Both the position numbers and the translations under genes were made by a program. Of a DNA stretch of 32,439 bases, positions 10,691-27,483 are shown one piece after another; positions within the stretch are counted from its first letter, which is position 1, and every line of letters begins with the position of its first letter. The stretch spans positions 1 through 32,439 of the forward strand of contig CANJXF010000047.1 of NCBI GenBank assembly GCA_947478865.1, written 5' to 3'. This stretch comes from Verrucomicrobiales bacterium (GTDB lineage Bacteria > Verrucomicrobiota > Verrucomicrobiia > Limisphaerales > CANJXF01). Below the pieces are notes generated by a model. The model had not been told where the DNA came from, did not search any database, and was given only the letters and a program-made list of their open reading frames with translations.

Positions 10691-12253
10691 TTAGCGCAGC
10701 CTGCCATTTTTCCCGAGATACTGGCGAATAAGCAGAGCTCCCGTGACCACTGCGACCAGCAGTTGCAAAATTGATGTGATCAGGACACCGGCCACCATTT
10801 CGAATGATATAGCGAGTAGCAGGAAAAGGCTGAGTGCAATTAGCCCTTCTATCGATAAAACGATTTTCTTAATTGACCATACCTCTGCCCAGCCGACGAG
10901 AAAACCGAGGGCCAGACCGATCAGTAGAGGGCCCCAGAATAAGCCTAAATTGCCAATCGCCTCCGGCAGCAGGCCCCAGGCGATATAGGTGATCTCGGTC
11001 GACTCTACATCGGGCTGCCGTTCGAAATGAACGTTGAGCAGGACTTGGCCTTCGTGCGAGCGCGGTTTGTTCGGCCAGAAAATGCGAGGAATGAGCAGCG
11101 GTGGAATCGTGGCATAACCCGCCCCGTGCAATGAAGGAATCTGCAAGCTCGTCATGGCTTCGGCCACGAAGAGCAGGTTTTGCAGGTTGTTGATCCGGGA
11201 AAACAATGTTTGCGTGCTACTGTCCTGATCCGCATCGGCGTTGGCTGTAAAGCTGGCGATGCTAGCGGCAGCCCATTCAGAGAAAAATGCCGGCATTTCG
11301 GAAAGGGATGACGGCCCTCCAAAACTTTGACCGACCCAATAGCGCTCGCGCATCACAAATTTACTTTGGTTCAGGAAGCCGGTGATTGCCGTCATAACAA
11401 TCAGGAAAGTCCATGGCATTTTTCGGCTGCCCAAAAGGATGCCGATAGCCACGGCGCCACACAGTCCGATTGCATCGGATAAGAGAATTCCTGAAAACTT
11501 AATCACGCAGAGCCCCCCGATACTGATCCAATAAAGCAAGCGAGAAGGACCGCGCGATTGCGTAAACCCGCCGAGCAGCGCGCCGCCATACATCGCGGCA
11601 TCGGAGAAGGTTCGAATGATCGGCAGCAGACCTGTGGCGATTACAGTGGAAAATGACCGAAGCAGGCCGGTAAAGATCACAAGATTGCCAAGGATGGCCA
11701 GCCCAAGAAAAGCAAATGCAATTGTCCCAAGGACCTTTTGTCGGTTGCGCTCACCGGGAGGGAGAGCAAAGCGGAATCGGGCCGGCCGGCTTCCCATCCC
11801 GCGGGCAAGGGACCATCCGATGGCCAGTGCGATACCATGCATTGCGAACAGGCCGGCACACGGCAACAGGAGCTCTGAAGGAAATTCCGTGATCACCTCG
11901 TTTCGGGTCAGCAGGGGGATCGCGTAAACGATCCCGCCTTGTACCGCGAGCAAGGGCAAGAAAGGCAAGCCTTTGCGGCTCGACTTCAACCAAATAAACA
12001 ACATGACGCCGGTCGTTGCGGTAATGGCCAAAAAGGAGAGCGCGTATCCGGGCTGAACAACAGCCAGAAAAAGAGCCCCGCCGAGCGAGAAAGCCATCCA
12101 AAACAGCAGAGCCCTGAAAAAGGGCAGCTGAATCGATTTGGCCAGCGAGCCGAAGTCCAGGCTGCTGAGCTCCAGCGTTGCCGGCGGCCTTCCAGGAGAG
12201 GGCGGAACGCCGGAACTGGCTGGGGCAGCGGACGGAATCTTTTCGATCGACAT
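10691..12253 (-). CDS. Polytopic membrane protein, Wzy-like O-antigen polymerase
   Basis: A 520-residue protein with about a dozen hydrophobic segments spread over its length and a proline-rich cytoplasmic N-terminal tail (first ~45 residues). The long loop in the C-terminal half contains LLIPRIFWPNKPRSHEG. An R-x-x-W-P-x-K-P motif of this kind is common in putative oligosaccharide-repeat-unit polymerases of exopolysaccharide clusters. The likely role is to join lipid-linked repeat units at the periplasmic face of the inner membrane. Primary sequence conservation in this family is poor, so the call rests on topology, that motif and the neighbours. Start ATG at 12253. An ABC exporter in the same locus makes a Wzy role unusual. 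Confidence 0.72.
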   Translation of the reverse strand: MSIEKIPSAAPASSGVPPSPGRPPATLELSSLDFGSLAKSIQLPFFRALLFWMAFSLGGALFLAVVQPGYALSFLAITATTGVMLFIWLKSSRKGLPFLPLLAVQGGIVYAIPLLTRNEVITEFPSELLLPCAGLFAMHGIALAIGWSLARGMGSRPARFRFALPPGERNRQKVLGTIAFAFLGLAILGNLVIFTGLLRSFSTVIATGLLPIIRTFSDAAMYGGALLGGFTQSRGPSRLLYWISIGGLCVIKFSGILLSDAIGLCGAVAIGILLGSRKMPWTFLIVMTAITGFLNQSKFVMRERYWVGQSFGGPSSLSEMPAFFSEWAAASIASFTANADADQDSSTQTLFSRINNLQNLLFVAEAMTSLQIPSLHGAGYATIPPLLIPRIFWPNKPRSHEGQVLLNVHFERQPDVESTEITYIAWGLLPEAIGNLGLFWGPLLIGLALGFLVGWAEVWSIKKIVLSIEGLIALSLFLLLAISFEMVAGVLITSILQLLVAVVTGALLIRQYLGKNGRLR

Positions 12254-21829: not shown

Positions 21830-23083
21830 TTACCCAAGTAAGTCGATTAATATGTCGGCAGCCGATGATGCGGCGGTCCCCGGGTTATAAAGAAGTTGTG
21901 ATCGCACGGACTGGCGCTCGGCAGAAAACGCCATAGGAAACTCTAAGCTCCGTTTAATCGCATCCCCGAGATCACCGGGGCCAGAAACAACCAGCCCGGC
22001 ACTACGTCCTGCATTCGCACGAATGTCGTTGAGCACGTCTTCAGCCGATCGAATATAGCGGCCTTGAGAATCGGAACCTATTGTATTTTGAAAAAAATCT
22101 GGACAATCAATGAAAATGACGGGTTTGTCCAACAACATGAATTCTAACGCCACTCCACTCACATCTGTGACCAAGACGTCACTGGCGACAAGGAAAGTGT
22201 CAATTGGTTGATTTCCTGCGTGGAAAAATAGTTTGTTATTCTCAAACCTTTTTAGTCTGTGGGGCCAATTTATACCGCTCGGATAATTCTCAGAATTATA
22301 GTGCATAGGATGCAACTTTACGATTACGCACGCTCCACACTTCATCAACTCCTCGACTACCCTATCACCATACATGTCCAAAGACGTCCCCGGGTCGTAG
22401 GCTGGCGCGTATAATACAACGGGAATGTCTTCGGGCAGGCCAAGCAGTGAAAGTGTCGCCTCTTTTTTATAGCATCCATTAACCAAATCGTCTGACTTTG
22501 GATAACCCACGTTGAACGACTTGATTTTTTCCGTGATGGTTGGATAGGCGGTGCAGAATGATTCATATAGACTACGTTGCAGGGGGCCTAAGATAAAGAG
22601 CGTGTTAAAATTTTTGATGAGTTCAGGGGCAAATGTGTTGCCCTTGCTTGGTTGGCCGTGGAACATGCAAACTCTGATGTTAGCCCGGTTTATTGGGCAG
22701 GCCCATTGCGTGGGCGTTATGAAAGCGTGAATGGTTTGGAGCCAGTTTAATAAATCCCAAGTTACAATTTTACTCTTGGCAATTCCCGTCGCCTCAGAAA
22801 CAACATCGACATCCATTCGTAATCGCTCGTCGATGGCGAGGAAACAGCATCCTTGCTTACGAGATTTCATCTGGCGGATTACGGGCGAAATGTAAGCCTC
22901 CTGCCCGCGGTAGCTGAGATGAAAAACTACGATTTTTTCTCCAGCAAATTTATTCCAAAGGCAAAACGCTTTTAGTTGGATTATTTTCAGTGTCCGTTTG
23001 ATTTCTAACAACCGCCGCGTTTTCCGGAGCAGCTTGCGTGTGCTTGGCCTAATGAAAGCAAAAATTTGCTTTGTCTCATTCAT
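21830..23083 (-). CDS. CDP-glycerol glycerophosphotransferase family protein (TagF-like)
   Basis: A 417-residue GT-B-like protein of the TagF/TagB family (PF04464), which transfers glycerol-phosphate, or another CDP-linked polyol, to a glycan. The basic N-terminal segment could bind the membrane. MFHGQPSKGNTFAP contains the family's catalytic H-G. VVLYAPAYDPGTS matches the W/Y-A-P-T segment. VIVKLHPMH supplies the conserved K-x-H-P. DVLVTDVSGVALEFMLLDKP is the donor-binding T-D-x-S-S region, with Gly in place of the second Ser. Length is close to a single catalytic domain. The gene is visibly AT-richer than the glycosyltransferases downstream and lies two bases after the methyltransferase. 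Confidence 0.86.
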   Translation of the reverse strand: MNETKQIFAFIRPSTRKLLRKTRRLLEIKRTLKIIQLKAFCLWNKFAGEKIVVFHLSYRGQEAYISPVIRQMKSRKQGCCFLAIDERLRMDVDVVSEATGIAKSKIVTWDLLNWLQTIHAFITPTQWACPINRANIRVCMFHGQPSKGNTFAPELIKNFNTLFILGPLQRSLYESFCTAYPTITEKIKSFNVGYPKSDDLVNGCYKKEATLSLLGLPEDIPVVLYAPAYDPGTSLDMYGDRVVEELMKCGACVIVKLHPMHYNSENYPSGINWPHRLKRFENNKLFFHAGNQPIDTFLVASDVLVTDVSGVALEFMLLDKPVIFIDCPDFFQNTIGSDSQGRYIRSAEDVLNDIRANAGRSAGLVVSGPGDLGDAIKRSLEFPMAFSAERQSVRSQLLYNPGTAASSAADILIDLLG

Positions 23084-23084
23084 C

Positions 23085-23900
23085 TCAACTTTTCAGAAGT
23101 CGGAATAGTAGAAAATCGTGGGAACGGTCTGAAGCCATAGGTTTTAGGGGGCGAACAATGTTAAGAACAGTTGTGATCACCTGAACTAAAAGGCAGGCTG
23201 ATCGAGGGTTGCGCTTCATCATCCATACCATTCCCTTCATAAATAGTGGCCATCGTGAAATCCGAGAAAGACGAAAGCGTTGATGCGATTGCTCTTTGTA
23301 AGTCAACTCGAAGCCAGCTTCTGAAAACGCACATTCTAGTTCGGGCAAAGATCTGTAGATGCACTTATACCCATCTATGTCGCAAAAAAACCTTTCTGAT
23401 GTACTTGTGGTGACACGATCAATGACGATCCCGTTTGTCGCTACCATTTTTCTGATATTTGAAATTACGGAATAAAGCGCACCTTCCTCGATGTATTGAT
23501 CAACGCCGCTTAAATATATAAGATCGAATTGCGTCATCGACACAAAATCCTGAGCTGGACCAACATGAAACTGAATATTTTTGATGTTGCTTTGCTCCGC
23601 CGCAGTCTCTGCAAGTCGAATCATTTCCTCGCTAAAGTCGATCGCTATTACTTCCTTCACGTAAGGAGCAATCAAGATTGACCAGCGGCCCGCACCACAA
23701 CCTAACTCCAGAACTCGCATCGACTTATCGAGGGATGCGATGCGGCGGAAGTGCTGCCATTCTGCATTTTTTCGATATAATAATGAGAACTGATCGGCGC
23801 CGAAAACCGATAAAATACCCGCAGATTCCGGCATAGTCTTGGCTTGGTTGTTCCACCAGTCCCTGACTCCGCTGGATGAGAAGTTGCTTGGAGTTTTCAT
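23085..23900 (-). CDS. Class I SAM-dependent methyltransferase
   Basis: A 271-residue methyltransferase (Methyltransf_11/25 type). Motif I is VLELGCGAGRW (63-73), motif II is VIAIDFSEEM with the ribose-binding Asp, and FDLIYLSGVDQYIEEG carries motif IV. The C-terminal part (FLLFRLLKS at the end, with hydrophobic stretches around SACLLVQVITTVLNIV) could contact the membrane. The substrate cannot be told. Its place between a LicC-like nucleotidyltransferase and a TagF-like transferase makes methylation of the transferred alcohol or of a sugar plausible. AT-rich like its two neighbours. Confidence 0.88.
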   Translation of the reverse strand: MKTPSNFSSSGVRDWWNNQAKTMPESAGILSVFGADQFSLLYRKNAEWQHFRRIASLDKSMRVLELGCGAGRWSILIAPYVKEVIAIDFSEEMIRLAETAAEQSNIKNIQFHVGPAQDFVSMTQFDLIYLSGVDQYIEEGALYSVISNIRKMVATNGIVIDRVTTSTSERFFCDIDGYKCIYRSLPELECAFSEAGFELTYKEQSHQRFRLSRISRWPLFMKGMVWMMKRNPRSACLLVQVITTVLNIVRPLKPMASDRSHDFLLFRLLKS

Positions 23901-23929
23901 TCGTCACTGACAAGTTGCGTTTCAAACGT

Positions 23930-24670
23930 TCACAATTCAGATTTTATTGCAGTGAAAAGTTCTGTAGCGCACGACAGGTCCTCATTGCTATCGATTTCGA
24001 ACCATTTGCGACCTGCAACATCAACGATGTGCACAACGCCTGAATCCATATGATCACCCAAAATCAAATCATAATACTGATTCTGCCTTCCCGCTTGAAT
24101 TCCTTCCTGTAACCAACCCCGGAGTTGCAATACGCCCAATTCAGATAAATGAATTACACCTATCGACTTACTCTGATTCGGCTTCAGTAACTTTAGGTCT
24201 CGAATAATTTGCAACGAAATTGCTGTAGAATTACCGCAGTGTTCTACGAAGGCACCATCTAAACTACGTGTTGTAGAATCCACAAACCACGCAATTTGAT
24301 GGGGAGCGTGTAATCCGAAAATTGAGCGCTCAAGAAAAACGTCACCTTCGATCACCCACGTTGCAGATTCTAGACCTTCTAAGCCAAGTGCTAGGCTGTA
24401 CATGCTATTTGTTGTTTTGTAGATTGGATTAAAAATATATTGAATGGTCATGTTTGCAAAACGATCAGTTATCGATTCCCGAATCAATTCGGCATGATGA
24501 CCCACAACTATTCTGGCTTCTTTGCAGCCATTTGCGGATAATGACTCCAAAGCGTTTTCCAAGATTCTCTTCCCGGCAACTGGAGCGAAGCATTTAGGGT
24601 GTGTTAGCGTGAAAGGTAACAGGCGTTTTCCTTCACCTGCTACTAGAATTACTGCATTCTTTGTAGTCAT
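23930..24670 (-). CDS. LicC-like nucleotidyltransferase (NTP_transferase family)
   Basis: A 246-residue protein from the ATG at 24670 (MTTKNAVILVAGEGKRLLPF); the frame also extends to a TTG at 24715. The N-terminal G-x-G-x-R-L loop (VAGEGKRLLPFT) with HPKCFAPVAGKRILE is the nucleotidyltransferase signature. NPIYKTTNSMYSLALGLE and VIEGDVFLE closely follow the pattern of CTP:phosphocholine cytidylyltransferases (LicC) and relatives such as aminoethylphosphonate cytidylyltransferases. It probably makes a CDP-linked alcohol for the TagF-like enzyme two genes on. A sugar-1-phosphate as substrate cannot be excluded. GAGA-type purines lie upstream. Confidence 0.82.
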   Translation of the reverse strand: MTTKNAVILVAGEGKRLLPFTLTHPKCFAPVAGKRILENALESLSANGCKEARIVVGHHAELIRESITDRFANMTIQYIFNPIYKTTNSMYSLALGLEGLESATWVIEGDVFLERSIFGLHAPHQIAWFVDSTTRSLDGAFVEHCGNSTAISLQIIRDLKLLKPNQSKSIGVIHLSELGVLQLRGWLQEGIQAGRQNQYYDLILGDHMDSGVVHIVDVAGRKWFEIDSNEDLSCATELFTAIKSEL

Positions 24671-24719
24671 ATGATTTCTCTGACAAGCGGCTTGGGTGTT
24701 TTCTATTTTCAGCAAACTT

Positions 24720-26033
24720 TCAGGTATTCCGAACGATCCATTTGTCTGGTAATTGTTTCCACTCCTTTAATTGCAAGAGGCAATCCGCGCTGGAACCTTG
24801 GTATCCACCAGTGACTTGAATCGCGTGCTGTTTGTAGCACCAAACCAGAAGATCTCCGTGAGAATCGATGAGGTTGATGGAAAGCCAATACATTCCGGAT
24901 TTCAGAGGCACTGATTCGAGAGTTATAGACCAAAGAGACTCACCGGAAGATAAGTCGATTTCTTGGTTTTTGGCCTCGAAGCGACATTCAGCTGCGAACC
25001 CATTTGATATATTGTAAAAATAAATTCGGACCTGAAAATTAGCCAGTGCGCATGCGGATTTTATATGGATTTTTATTTCAAGTGGTTCCCAAATAGATAA
25101 CCGTGTGGACGGCAAGTTGGCGGAAAATGAAGTGATCGGCGGTTGTACAGACAAAAATGATTCTATCGCCTGTTCGCTTTCGTCGTTTAACTGATCGTAT
25201 CTCAAAATTCCTTCAGCAACTGCTCCAAAATAAGCGGCGCGACCACCGGACATTGTAAGGACATGATCACAAACCCGCGAAATTTGTTCCATACTGTGTG
25301 ACACAAAAATAACAGCGGCTTTCTTGCGTAGGGAAACTACTCGTCTATAACATTTATTTCGAAAAGCTGCGTCCCCTACCGCCAGCACTTCGTCCAGCAA
25401 CAGCACATCCGGCTCCATCGCCGTGGCCACAGCAAACCCCAACCTCACCTGCATCCCGGAACTATAGCTTTGTACGGGCGAATCAATGAAGTCGCCAATG
25501 TCGGCAAAATCGATGATGTCCTGGAGCTTCTCATCAATTTCACGTTTGGTTAGACCCAGCACCGAACCATTGACGTAGATATTCTCGCGCCCGGTCAGGA
25601 TCGGGTTGAATCCAGCCCCCAGCGCAATCAAGGCCCCGACCCGCCCACGCATGGTGATCGAGCCGGCGTCCGGTTTGATCAATCCATTGAGCATCTTGAG
25701 CAGAGTCGTCTTGCCGGCTCCGTTGCGGCCAATCAGCCCCAGGCATTCGCCGCGCCGGAGTTCAAAGGAGACGTCGTTGACCGCCCAGAACTCGCCAGGT
25801 CGGAGGTCGGCTGCGGAGGACGGGTGGCCTTCTGCCCGCTGATCTCTGCCTTCTGATCTCTGTTCTCTTGCTCCTGACTTCTGATTACCGAATGGGTTTA
25901 AATCGGAAAGGATGTCCTGCACTCCATAGAAGAGTGATTTCTTGAGGCTGCGGCAGAACTTTTTGCTGACACCTTCCACCTTAACGAGAACTTCGTCGTT
26001 TCCAGAGGTCGGAGGTCGGAGGTCGGAGGACAT
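24720..26033 (-). CDS. wzt: ABC transporter ATPase, Wzt type with C-terminal substrate-binding domain
   Basis: A 437-residue ATPase that would power export of a finished lipid-linked polysaccharide with the Wzm permease. Walker A is GRNGAGKTT (102-110), the signature YSSGMQ is at 190-195, Walker B LLLDE at 211-215, and the H-loop His in VSHS near 246. Residues from about 300 on form a beta-rich Wzt_C-like domain that, in E. coli O8/O9a, recognises the polymer's end group. Residues 51-78 (Arg/Glu/Gln/Ser) and the first 12 (MSSDLRPPTSGN) are encoded by 7-nt arrays. Base composition changes from GC-rich to AT-rich within the gene near 25370, so the 3' part appears to have been exchanged. Confidence 0.9.
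   Translation of the reverse strand: MSSDLRPPTSGNDEVLVKVEGVSKKFCRSLKKSLFYGVQDILSDLNPFGNQKSGAREQRSEGRDQRAEGHPSSAADLRPGEFWAVNDVSFELRRGECLGLIGRNGAGKTTLLKMLNGLIKPDAGSITMRGRVGALIALGAGFNPILTGRENIYVNGSVLGLTKREIDEKLQDIIDFADIGDFIDSPVQSYSSGMQVRLGFAVATAMEPDVLLLDEVLAVGDAAFRNKCYRRVVSLRKKAAVIFVSHSMEQISRVCDHVLTMSGGRAAYFGAVAEGILRYDQLNDESEQAIESFLSVQPPITSFSANLPSTRLSIWEPLEIKIHIKSACALANFQVRIYFYNISNGFAAECRFEAKNQEIDLSSGESLWSITLESVPLKSGMYWLSINLIDSHGDLLVWCYKQHAIQVTGGYQGSSADCLLQLKEWKQLPDKWIVRNT
25800..25883. repeat. Heptad array inside wzt
   Basis: Units such as GGAGGTC, GAGGACG, TTCTGCC, CGCTGAT, CTCTGCC, TTCTGAT, CTCTGTT, CTCTTGC and TCCTGAC run in a 7-nt register. It inserts about 28 residues between the N-terminal strand of the ATPase and FWAVNDVSFELRRGE. 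Confidence 0.7.
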
Positions 26034-26110
26034 TTTAAAAGGAGGACAGATGTCGGAGATCAGTGGGCTGATGTCAGAGGTCGGGGACCGGAGATCAGGA
26101 ATGGGACTGG
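26002..26110. repeat. Heptad array spanning the wzt start and the end of the four-helix-bundle gene
   Basis: GGAGGTC occurs three times in perfect tandem at 26009-26029, just inside the wzt start codon. Degenerate units (AGGACAG, ATGTCGG, AGATCAG, TGGGCTG, ATGTCAG, AGGTCGG, GGACCGG) continue to about 26110. Thus the wzt start codon, the intergenic gap and the last 15-17 codons of the upstream gene are all array-derived. Confidence 0.75.
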
Positions 26111-26461
26111 GTTCCTCAACATGCTGCCGAGCATTCTTCCTATTTCGCGGTTTAAACTCATGAGTTCAGCGTGTTGTTTGGCCGTTATGTAGCCACAGGA
26201 AAGAGAAAAATCCAATGAGGATTCGGTTTCGCCATTTTCGCCGTCGCAATCGGTTAGCTTGCTGATGAAGTGGGCTTCGTAACGTCTCTTGGCCCACGCT
26301 TCGCGCAAGTTCAAGGTTACGGAGCGGGAGGATCGCCGAATTTGGCTGATCAGGGCGAACTTTTCTTCGGCAGGAAAACCCTTGCTGAGTTCAAAGATAC
26401 GCATCGCCTGCTCATAGCTGCATTTGTAAACGTCGAGCTCCTTCGCCGAGTTGATTTGCAT
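26060..26461 (-). CDS. Four-helix-bundle protein (TIGR02436 / S23 type)
   Basis: A 133-residue protein from the ATG at 26461, preceded by GGAG. The frame extends further upstream only through a heptad array. LDVYKCSYEQAMRIFELSKG, then QIRRSSRSVTLNLREAWAKR and RRYEAHFISKLTDCDGENGE are textbook features of the four-helix-bundle family first seen as an ORF in 23S rRNA intervening sequences; it is also related in fold to the Avd protein of diversity-generating retroelements. Function is unknown. The natural end is near MLRNP; the last 15 or so residues come from an array. It lies between wzm and wzt, which are normally adjacent. Confidence 0.85.
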   Translation of the reverse strand: MQINSAKELDVYKCSYEQAMRIFELSKGFPAEEKFALISQIRRSSRSVTLNLREAWAKRRYEAHFISKLTDCDGENGETESSLDFSLSCGYITAKQHAELMSLNREIGRMLGSMLRNPVPFLISGPRPLTSAH

Positions 26462-26504
26462 TCTGGATCCGTTCTCCGATTCGCGTTTCGCTTCCCACGC
26501 CTTC

Positions 26505-26578
26505 CGCCTTCCGCCTTCCGCCTTCCGCCTTCCGCCTTCTGTCCTCTGTCCTCTGTCCTCTGTCCTCTGCCTTCCGAA
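26505..26578. repeat. Perfect heptanucleotide tandem array
   Basis: CCTTCCG four times, CCTTCTG once, TCCTCTG four times and CCTTCCG again make ten consecutive 7-nt units. This is the cleanest array in the window. It fills the gap between the Wzm stop and the four-helix-bundle start region. Confidence 0.9.
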
Positions 26579-26580
26579 TA

Positions 26581-27483
26581 TTAGTTTCCAATGCGGGCGA
26601 TGATGTGAGGGAGGGCGAGGCGGTAGATCACCCAGCCCAGAAACAGGAGTGCCGATGCGACTCCGCTGACGATGAGGAAACCGGGCAAGTGATTCGTCGC
26701 GCCGAGCGTCAGCCAATCGCGCGTGGTCGTGACCAAAGGGGTGAGCGGATTCCATTGGGCGACCCAACCCGCCAAGCCACCCTCTGGTTGCGGGTAAAGG
26801 ACGGGAGTTAAAAACATCAGGAACATCGCGCCAATCGGAATAAGTTGCTGGACATCGTTGTAAAGGAGCCCGAGCGGCGTCAGGAGCACGCCAAACATAA
26901 AGCCAATCATGATCAGGGAAAGGATTCCGAAGGGGAAAAGCCAGGCCGTGGCCGGAGGGGTAATTTTGAACCAGGCAAACACCCCAACCAGGAGCACCAG
27001 GCGGATCAGGAAATTGAAAATTACCTGCCCGAGCCCGGCCAGAAGAATGGCTTCACGCGGGAAATTAATCCGGGTGAGCATGGATTTGGCGGACGTGACG
27101 GTTTTGATCGGGCTGTTCAACGCATCCACAAAGACCTGCCAGATGATGGTGCCAATCATGGCATACGCGGCGTAGGGAATGGAGGTATCTTTGATGGCGA
27201 CAACTCCCTGGGCGTTGAGGAAAATAAACGGGAGGCTGGCGACGAGCGGAGGAATAAACGCCCAGACATAGCCCAGGATACTCTGGCGATATTGGGCCGA
27301 GGTATCGCGCACGAACAGCCGCCAGGCCAGCTCGCGCGAGGCCAACAGGTCGCGAAACATCTCGCGGAGGAGCTGTCCGGGGTGGCGCAGGGGCGATTCC
27401 GGGGAGTAAACTCTTACCGGCAGTTCCATCGCGGGCACCCGGGCAATCGAGGGATCGACCGGTGAGTCAGTTTGAGAAATCAC
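26581..27483 (-). CDS. wzm: ABC transporter permease, Wzm type
   Basis: A 300-residue ABC-2 type integral membrane protein that forms the polysaccharide export channel with Wzt. After a hydrophilic N-terminus, LASRELAWRLFVRDTSAQYR is the amphipathic interface helix, followed by QSILGYVWAFIPPLVASLPF and about five more hydrophobic segments. YAAYAMIGTIIWQVFVDALN and QWNPLTPLVTTTRDW are typical of O-antigen/teichoic-acid exporters. The frame opens at a GTG (27483); the ATG at 27429 (MELPVRVYSPES) is an equally good start and better matches relatives. The gene is GC-rich, unlike the 3' half of wzt. Confidence 0.9.
   Translation of the reverse strand: MISQTDSPVDPSIARVPAMELPVRVYSPESPLRHPGQLLREMFRDLLASRELAWRLFVRDTSAQYRQSILGYVWAFIPPLVASLPFIFLNAQGVVAIKDTSIPYAAYAMIGTIIWQVFVDALNSPIKTVTSAKSMLTRINFPREAILLAGLGQVIFNFLIRLVLLVGVFAWFKITPPATAWLFPFGILSLIMIGFMFGVLLTPLGLLYNDVQQLIPIGAMFLMFLTPVLYPQPEGGLAGWVAQWNPLTPLVTTTRDWLTLGATNHLPGFLIVSGVASALLFLGWVIYRLALPHIIARIGN

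Follow-up and report, generated by a model that had tools for sequence, protein, structure and literature searches.

Gene content of the locus

The window, that is, the whole stretch of 32,439 nucleotides that was analysed, contains a cassette of three genes on the minus strand, which encode a LicC/PntC-type cytidylyltransferase (NTase), a class I SAM methyltransferase (MT), and a TagF-like phosphotransferase (Table 1). The sequence-only reading had placed three adjacent genes between positions 21830 and 24670, and the open reading frames were confirmed there, with a spacing of 1 bp between the TagF-like and MT genes and 29 bp between the MT and NTase genes. The NTase gene also has an alternative in-frame TTG start at 24715. 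On the minus strand, the cassette is preceded by a probable wzm gene, a 23S-rRNA-intervening-sequence-type gene and wzt, and it is followed by glycosyltransferase genes. No Pfam match was obtained for the probable wzm. Nor did Pfam identify a kinase domain in the cassette, the MT gene containing methyltransferase domains only, and no gene supplying a phospho-alcohol was found in the window, which counts against the interpretation that we favor below.

The 23S-rRNA-intervening-sequence-type gene, located at 26060-26461 between the probable wzm and wzt, is flanked by low-complexity gaggacagaaggcgga repeats that recur in the 5' part of wzt (26490-26575, 25820-25880). A 520-aa membrane-type protein encoded at 10691-12253 has the appearance of an O-antigen polymerase and no Pfam match, and it is located in the same locus as the ABC exporter.

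Table 1. Features of the cassette, the adjacent exporter genes and the low-GC island
Feature	Position	Strand	Length	Description
TagF-like (PF04464) phosphotransferase	21830-23083	-	417 aa	PF04464 match; N-terminal part of its own
Class I SAM methyltransferase (MT)	23085-23900	-	271 aa	Member of an NTase-linked, phosphoethanolamine-N-methyltransferase-like family
LicC/PntC-type (COG1213-like) cytidylyltransferase (NTase)	23930-24670	-	246 aa	Counted from ATG at 24670
wzt	24720-26033	-		ABC exporter gene upstream of NTase
wzt, 5' part	25366-26033	-		Nucleotide-binding domain; ABC_tran 90.6 bits; normal composition of the locus
wzt, 3' half	24720-25365	-		End of nucleotide-binding domain and probable carbohydrate-binding domain; low GC
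Probable wzm	26581-27483	-		Putative membrane part of the ABC exporter, from sequence character and place upstream of wzt
Low-GC island	22048-25365	.		GC 0.439 versus 0.56-0.59; two-breakpoint likelihood

A low-GC island that divides wzt

The cassette had been claimed to differ from its flanks in base composition, and this was borne out both by the GC3 values, which were 0.38 for the NTase, 0.47 for the MT and 0.50 for the TagF-like gene as compared to 0.57-0.72 for most neighbors, and by a two-breakpoint likelihood analysis, which gave a 2dLL of 205 for the island versus at most 64 when blocks of 300 bp were shuffled 30 times. The right edge of the island is located inside wzt, just past the conserved DEVLAVGD motif, and the GC3 value drops from 0.67 in the 5' part of the gene to 0.41 in the 3' part. 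Since the edge falls within wzt, the 3' half of this gene belongs to the island. The left edge is soft: the final ~220 bp of the TagF-like gene fall outside, and the next glycosyltransferase genes have intermediate GC3 values of 0.51-0.56. The simplest reading is that recombination within the conserved ATPase part of wzt imported the binding half of Wzt along with the three genes.

The C-terminal part of Wzt aligned in register with the Wzt_C domain at 17.5 bits, which is below the cut-off of 30.4, and the window protein was not among the matches in a search of the host genome for Wzt_C. A single-sequence model of this part had low confidence (pLDDT 52, pTM 0.58). The carbohydrate-binding domain (CBD) of A. 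aeolicus Wzt was among the best Foldseek matches of this model, and it ranked first in a second comparison with a Z-score of 9.5, while generic beta-sandwiches scored up to 9.0. Of the earlier suggestion of an AT-rich end-recognition domain in Wzt, the low GC of the 3' half stands, and the C-terminal part resembles a Wzt carbohydrate-binding domain, albeit below the Wzt_C cut-off. Two more Wzt_C-bearing open reading frames are located on other contigs of the host genome, G000:C46 (L022) and G000:C2 (L002).

The cytidylyltransferase and its pocket residues

The NTase matched the NTP_transferase Pfam model at 41.2 bits (cut-off 21.2), and its best PDB match as a single sequence was LicC (1.1e-10). 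A profile built from the window protein and 15 relatives matched LicC (1jyk) at 9e-32 over positions 2-241 and PntC (6pd1) at 3.5e-30 over positions 1-239, followed by CTP:inositol-1-phosphate cytidylyltransferases at ~1e-16. Most sugar-type nucleotidyltransferases matched this profile far more weakly and mainly in the N-terminal part. The residues R16, K26, D110, E225 and D227, which are implicated in catalysis and metal binding, were retained in the alignments. The LicC-like identity proposed earlier thereby holds at the level of the phospho-alcohol/phosphonate cytidylyltransferase class, and because LicC and PntC are the top matches over the full length, the NTase does not belong with the sugar-1-phosphate enzymes, an assignment that would have spoken against the sequence-only reading.

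Known substrates of the LicC/PntC class include not only phosphocholine and aminoethylphosphonate (PMC6697681) but also, within the same COG1213 class, phosphoglutamine, inositol phosphate and phosphoglycerate (PMC12275187). With so many substrates in the class, homology alone does not fix the one used by the NTase. The amine is surrounded by acidic residues, which are D105 and D192 in LicC, where the Asp pair leaves room for phosphocholine, and E104 and E196 in PntC of T. denticola (PMC6697681). The corresponding residues in the window protein are E108 and D201, which differs from the D/D pair of LicC proper. The pair is E/E in 85 of the 97 aligned proteins of the class, and the E/D combination was only observed in the window NTase and three proteins from DPANN archaea. 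As it mixes the E/E pair of PntC with the D/D pair of LicC, the substrate cannot be read from the pocket. A possible association of the E108/D201 pair with methylated substrates was dropped, since the MT-linked relatives have E/E. In the phylogeny, the window NTase grouped with the three DPANN sequences (99/97) on a long branch, its placement beyond that being uncertain.

The methyltransferase belongs to an NTase-linked family

To describe the genomic context of the NTase, we surveyed the 80 NTase loci in GTDB species genomes that were nearest to the window protein. The MT matches class I methyltransferase Pfam models. In 10 of the 80 loci, a homolog of the MT (E<1e-7) is encoded no more than three genes away from the NTase, and none of the loci has one elsewhere. 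An eleventh case (L154), from the order of the host, contains a set of NTase, MT and CDP-alcohol transferase. The homolog directly adjoins the NTase in seven cases (L064, L088, L109, L111, L131, L132, L154), usually followed by a CDP-alcohol transferase, and is located nearby in another four (L056, L067, L074, L101). The adjoining homologs span Nitrospirota, Gammaproteobacteria and Planctomycetota as well as one genome of the host order.

In 10 of 10 genomes tested, the NTase-linked MT ranked first genome-wide among the matches to the window MT, with genes equated by a manual comparison of coordinates; these genomes were selected because they already showed a linked MT, so that the count says nothing about the frequency of linkage and adds only that no other methyltransferase in them is closer to the window MT. 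A hidden Markov model of nine NTase-linked MTs, built without the window protein, retrieved the latter at 1.3e-26, while the best unlinked open reading frame of 1103 scored 3e-7.

In a search of the PDB with a joint profile of the window and linked MTs, the plant structures 5wp5 and 5wp4 were the top matches (4e-32 and 1e-29), which belong to the class of phosphomethylethanolamine and phosphoethanolamine N-methyltransferases (PMTs), and the next match, at 8.5e-17, was also a PMT. In the reciprocal search of 1104 open reading frames with a plant PMT domain, NTase-linked MTs occupied ranks 1-8, with the window MT twelfth at 7e-6, below two unlinked MTs. The window MT alone was weakly PMT-like in a search of the PDB (7e-7), and it was also weakly similar to WbdD. 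Judged from the similarities to PMTs, the family as a whole carries a strong hint of a PMT-like function, and its member in the window a moderate one.

The set of NTase, PMT-like MT and CDP-alcohol phosphatidyltransferase was observed in several phyla, in the seven loci with directly adjoining genes listed above. It may represent an undescribed prokaryotic route to lipid head groups of the CDP-choline/ethanolamine type.

The TagF-like protein and its relatives

The TagF-like protein matched PF04464 at 61.5 bits, above the gathering cut-off of 22.1. Its sole PDB match was TagF (1.4e-4), restricted to residues 163-326, and it scored 25.9 bits against the NCBIfam equivalog for TarF, for which the cut-off is 550. 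The residues H142-G143, H258, D307, S309 and E314 are invariant in the relatives of the protein, while its predicted structure was poor (pLDDT 46).

In L091, L123, L125 and L158, a TagF-like gene was located no more than two genes away from an NTase of the class, and the same holds weakly for L118, where the similarity to TagF resides in a YidC-type protein of which Pfam only detects the YidC part. In 50 NTase-bearing genomes, the window protein had two matches at E<=1e-10, both of which were neighbors of an NTase (L158, and L159, which is the same place as L091). The L158 locus, from a deltaproteobacterial MAG, has the order NTase, APH-family kinase, PF04464, PF04464 (4816-9432). It follows the logic of the Lic system, except that the transferase is of the TagF type rather than LicD. 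The same genome also has a separate set of NTase, PLP enzyme and CDP-alcohol transferase (L060).

Co-occurrence of the genes in other genomes

The exact triple of NTase, MT and TagF-like gene was not found in 320 genomes of the host order, in 387 genomes sampled across the phylum or in the 80 best GTDB loci, and the NTase relatives L018-L021 in the host order had no TagF neighbor. In this material, the co-occurrence looked for by the sequence-only reading was therefore seen for pairs only, namely NTase with MT in 11 genomes and NTase with TagF in five loci, of which one is weak. These recurrent pairs provide independent support for the pathway idea. Viral contigs gave nothing when scanned with each of the three proteins singly or with a TagF alignment, and phages contained one partial NTase match. 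No good match to the TagF-like protein was found on plasmids.

The most common context among the 80 loci was an NTase accompanied by a PLP enzyme of class I/II and by a CDP-alcohol phosphatidyltransferase. Of six PLP proteins tested from this group, five had the CobD threonine-phosphate decarboxylase as their best match and the sixth (L056) had HisC, all below the curated cut-offs. The PLP protein in a rhizobial PEP-mutase cluster differs in being aspartate-aminotransferase-like. Sets with a CobD-like enzyme (L057, L059-L061, L063, L067, L068, L079-L081, L112 and others) range from methanogens to Bacteroidota, and PEP mutase is absent in most of the genomes tested. An Azospirillum plasmid cluster (L048) combines a PEP-utilising enzyme, a class I GATase-type protein and an NTase. 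It resembles the methyl-phosphoramidate genes of Campylobacter.

In the literature that we searched, which covered few subscription journals, we found no description of a LicC and TagF combination, nor of a link in bacteria between a phosphoethanolamine methyltransferase and CDP-choline.

Possible sources of the substrate

The host genome, which is 97% complete, contains no PEP mutase. The sole match, at 106 bits (cut-off 319.6), has the RCGH motif of methylisocitrate lyases and adjoins a citrate-synthase-like gene, and was rejected as PrpB-like. No PF01633 choline kinase was detected in the host genome at E<=0.001, in a search that covered this kinase family only. Together, these results argue against phosphonates and choline salvage as sources of the substrate. 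The host genome has two CobD/HisC-like genes. The CobD-like PLP neighbors in other genomes, along with the lack of PEP mutase and PF01633 choline kinase in the host, favor a phospho-amino-alcohol.

A putative pathway for decoration of a surface glycan

We consider it an even bet, with a probability of about one half, that the island is a glycan-decoration module by which an N-methylated phospho-amino-alcohol is converted to a CDP-alcohol and put on a glycan by the TagF-like enzyme. The module would have been acquired horizontally and inserted in a locus for an ABC-exporter-dependent surface polysaccharide. The MT would make the methylated group de novo by N-methylating a small phospho-amino-alcohol, most likely phosphoethanolamine, to its mono-, di- or trimethyl form, with phosphocholine at the limit. 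The NTase would couple this product to CTP, and the TagF-like GT-B enzyme, acting in the cytoplasm, would move the phospho-alcohol moiety of the CDP-alcohol onto a hydroxyl group of the lipid-linked glycan, after which the chimeric Wzt, with the binding half brought by the module, may help to export the decorated chain. The combination of activation, methylation and transfer suggested earlier is consistent with the class of the NTase, the NTase-linked family of the MT and the recurrence of PF04464 proteins beside NTases, while the exact triple did not recur in the material searched. What is new here is the gene combination and the link to a PMT-like methyltransferase. The gene content, the class of the NTase, the mosaic of base compositions and the recurrent pairs are observed, and the chemistry, with the substrate, the order in which methylation and activation take place, the acceptor and the reading by Wzt, is inferred.

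In characterised systems, the binding module of Wzt recognises a terminal group (PMC3482155, PMC11231755), and the chain terminators of such systems have a coiled-coil ruler (PMC11231755), a feature that was not noticed here. A matched cap would fit because the binding half of Wzt and the cassette were probably acquired together, and the phospho-alcohol could plausibly be a terminal cap that is read by Wzt, or else a substituent within the chain. A more specific version, in which the O-polysaccharide receives a phosphocholine-type cap through de novo PMT-like synthesis of the head group, LicC-class activation and TagF-like capping, and the co-acquired Wzt domain admits capped chains only, is rather doubtful. 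Were this version true, the NTase-MT pair that is joined in other phyla by a CDP-alcohol phosphatidyltransferase would represent an undescribed prokaryotic CDP-choline lipid route.

A somewhat unlikely alternative is that the NTase and the TagF-like enzyme add a group without an amine, such as phosphoglycerate, glycerol phosphate, inositol phosphate or the like, and that the MT acts separately, for example in WbdD-type O-methylation of a sugar or phosphate. Consistent with this, the COG1213 enzyme CpgD uses phosphoglycerate (PMC12275187), the CBD of A. aeolicus Wzt binds 3-O-methylmannose (8dky), and relatives of the TagF-like protein in another branch of the host phylum are located near a TagD-like gene (L016; TagD named by eye). 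The weak similarity of the MT to WbdD is also in favor of this alternative, whereas the membership of the MT in the NTase-linked family and the lack of a kinase domain in the cassette speak against it.

The three genes could also be unrelated decoration genes that are neighbors by chance in a variable glycan locus, rather than parts of one pathway. Glycan loci are mosaics, the exact triple is unique in the material searched, and the island has no sharp boundary at its TagF end. However, the common composition and near-zero spacing of the genes, and the independent recurrence of both pairs, NTase with MT and NTase with TagF, across several phyla, make this unlikely.

Activation of a phosphonate (2-aminoethylphosphonate or its N-methyl derivative) within a phosphonoglycan pathway of the Pnt type that uses a TagF-like transferase would agree with the PntC-type residue E108, with the PntC-like proteins beside the aepX PEP mutase that are the best plasmid relatives of the NTase, and with the two fused NTases, one TagF-linked and one MT-linked, in genomes that have a PEP mutase (G471, G462), but it is quite improbable given the lack of a PEP mutase in the host genome and its presence above the cut-off in only 4 of the 25 genomes with close NTase relatives, the other 21 having none above it.

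If the glycan-decoration pathway is true, bacteria could carry methylated head groups of their own making without a supply of choline, attached by a teichoic-acid-type transferase, and the locus would offer a new type of cap for studying the basis on which Wzt picks out finished chains. The sets of NTase, MT and CDP-alcohol transferase and of NTase, CobD-like enzyme and CDP-alcohol transferase, both of which recur, also point to an unassigned head-group pathway in many phyla.

Comparison with known systems

The cassette resembles the Lic-1 system (LicA-LicB-LicC-LicD), which places phosphocholine on LPS or teichoic acid, in its LicC-class CDP activation and in the putative step that attaches a phospho-alcohol to a glycan of the cell surface. 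Lic-1 decoration requires imported choline and LicD (PMC10434233), whereas the cassette has, in place of LicD, an MT and a transferase of the PF04464 family, and the host genome has no PF01633 choline kinase corresponding to LicA. In the Pnt phosphonyl-tailoring pathway, PntC is of the same class as the NTase and shares the acidic residue E108; the pathway differs in its PEP mutase, which is missing from the host genome.

The TagF/TarF CDP-glycerol glycerophosphotransferases have PF04464, the histidines of the HG and KLHP motifs and the TDxSG motif in common with the TagF-like protein. However, the alignment only covers residues 163-326, the score is below the TarF equivalog cut-off, and the window contains no TagD. 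The WbdD-type terminators of E. coli O8/O9a and Klebsiella O3/O7 place a methyl- and phosphate-containing group beside a Wzt that has a C-terminal binding domain (PMC3482155, PMC11231755), as is proposed for the cassette and the probable binding domain of its Wzt, but they have kinase and methyltransferase on one chain, unlike the MT, and the proposed donor in the cassette is a CDP-alcohol.

The last comparison is with the plant and protozoan route, in which phosphoethanolamine N-methylation precedes CDP-choline synthesis. While the cassette is prokaryotic, with a single MT domain, a window MT of weak similarity and a glycan substituent as the proposed end product, the order of the chemistry would be the same, and the profile of the MT family is closest to the PMTs.
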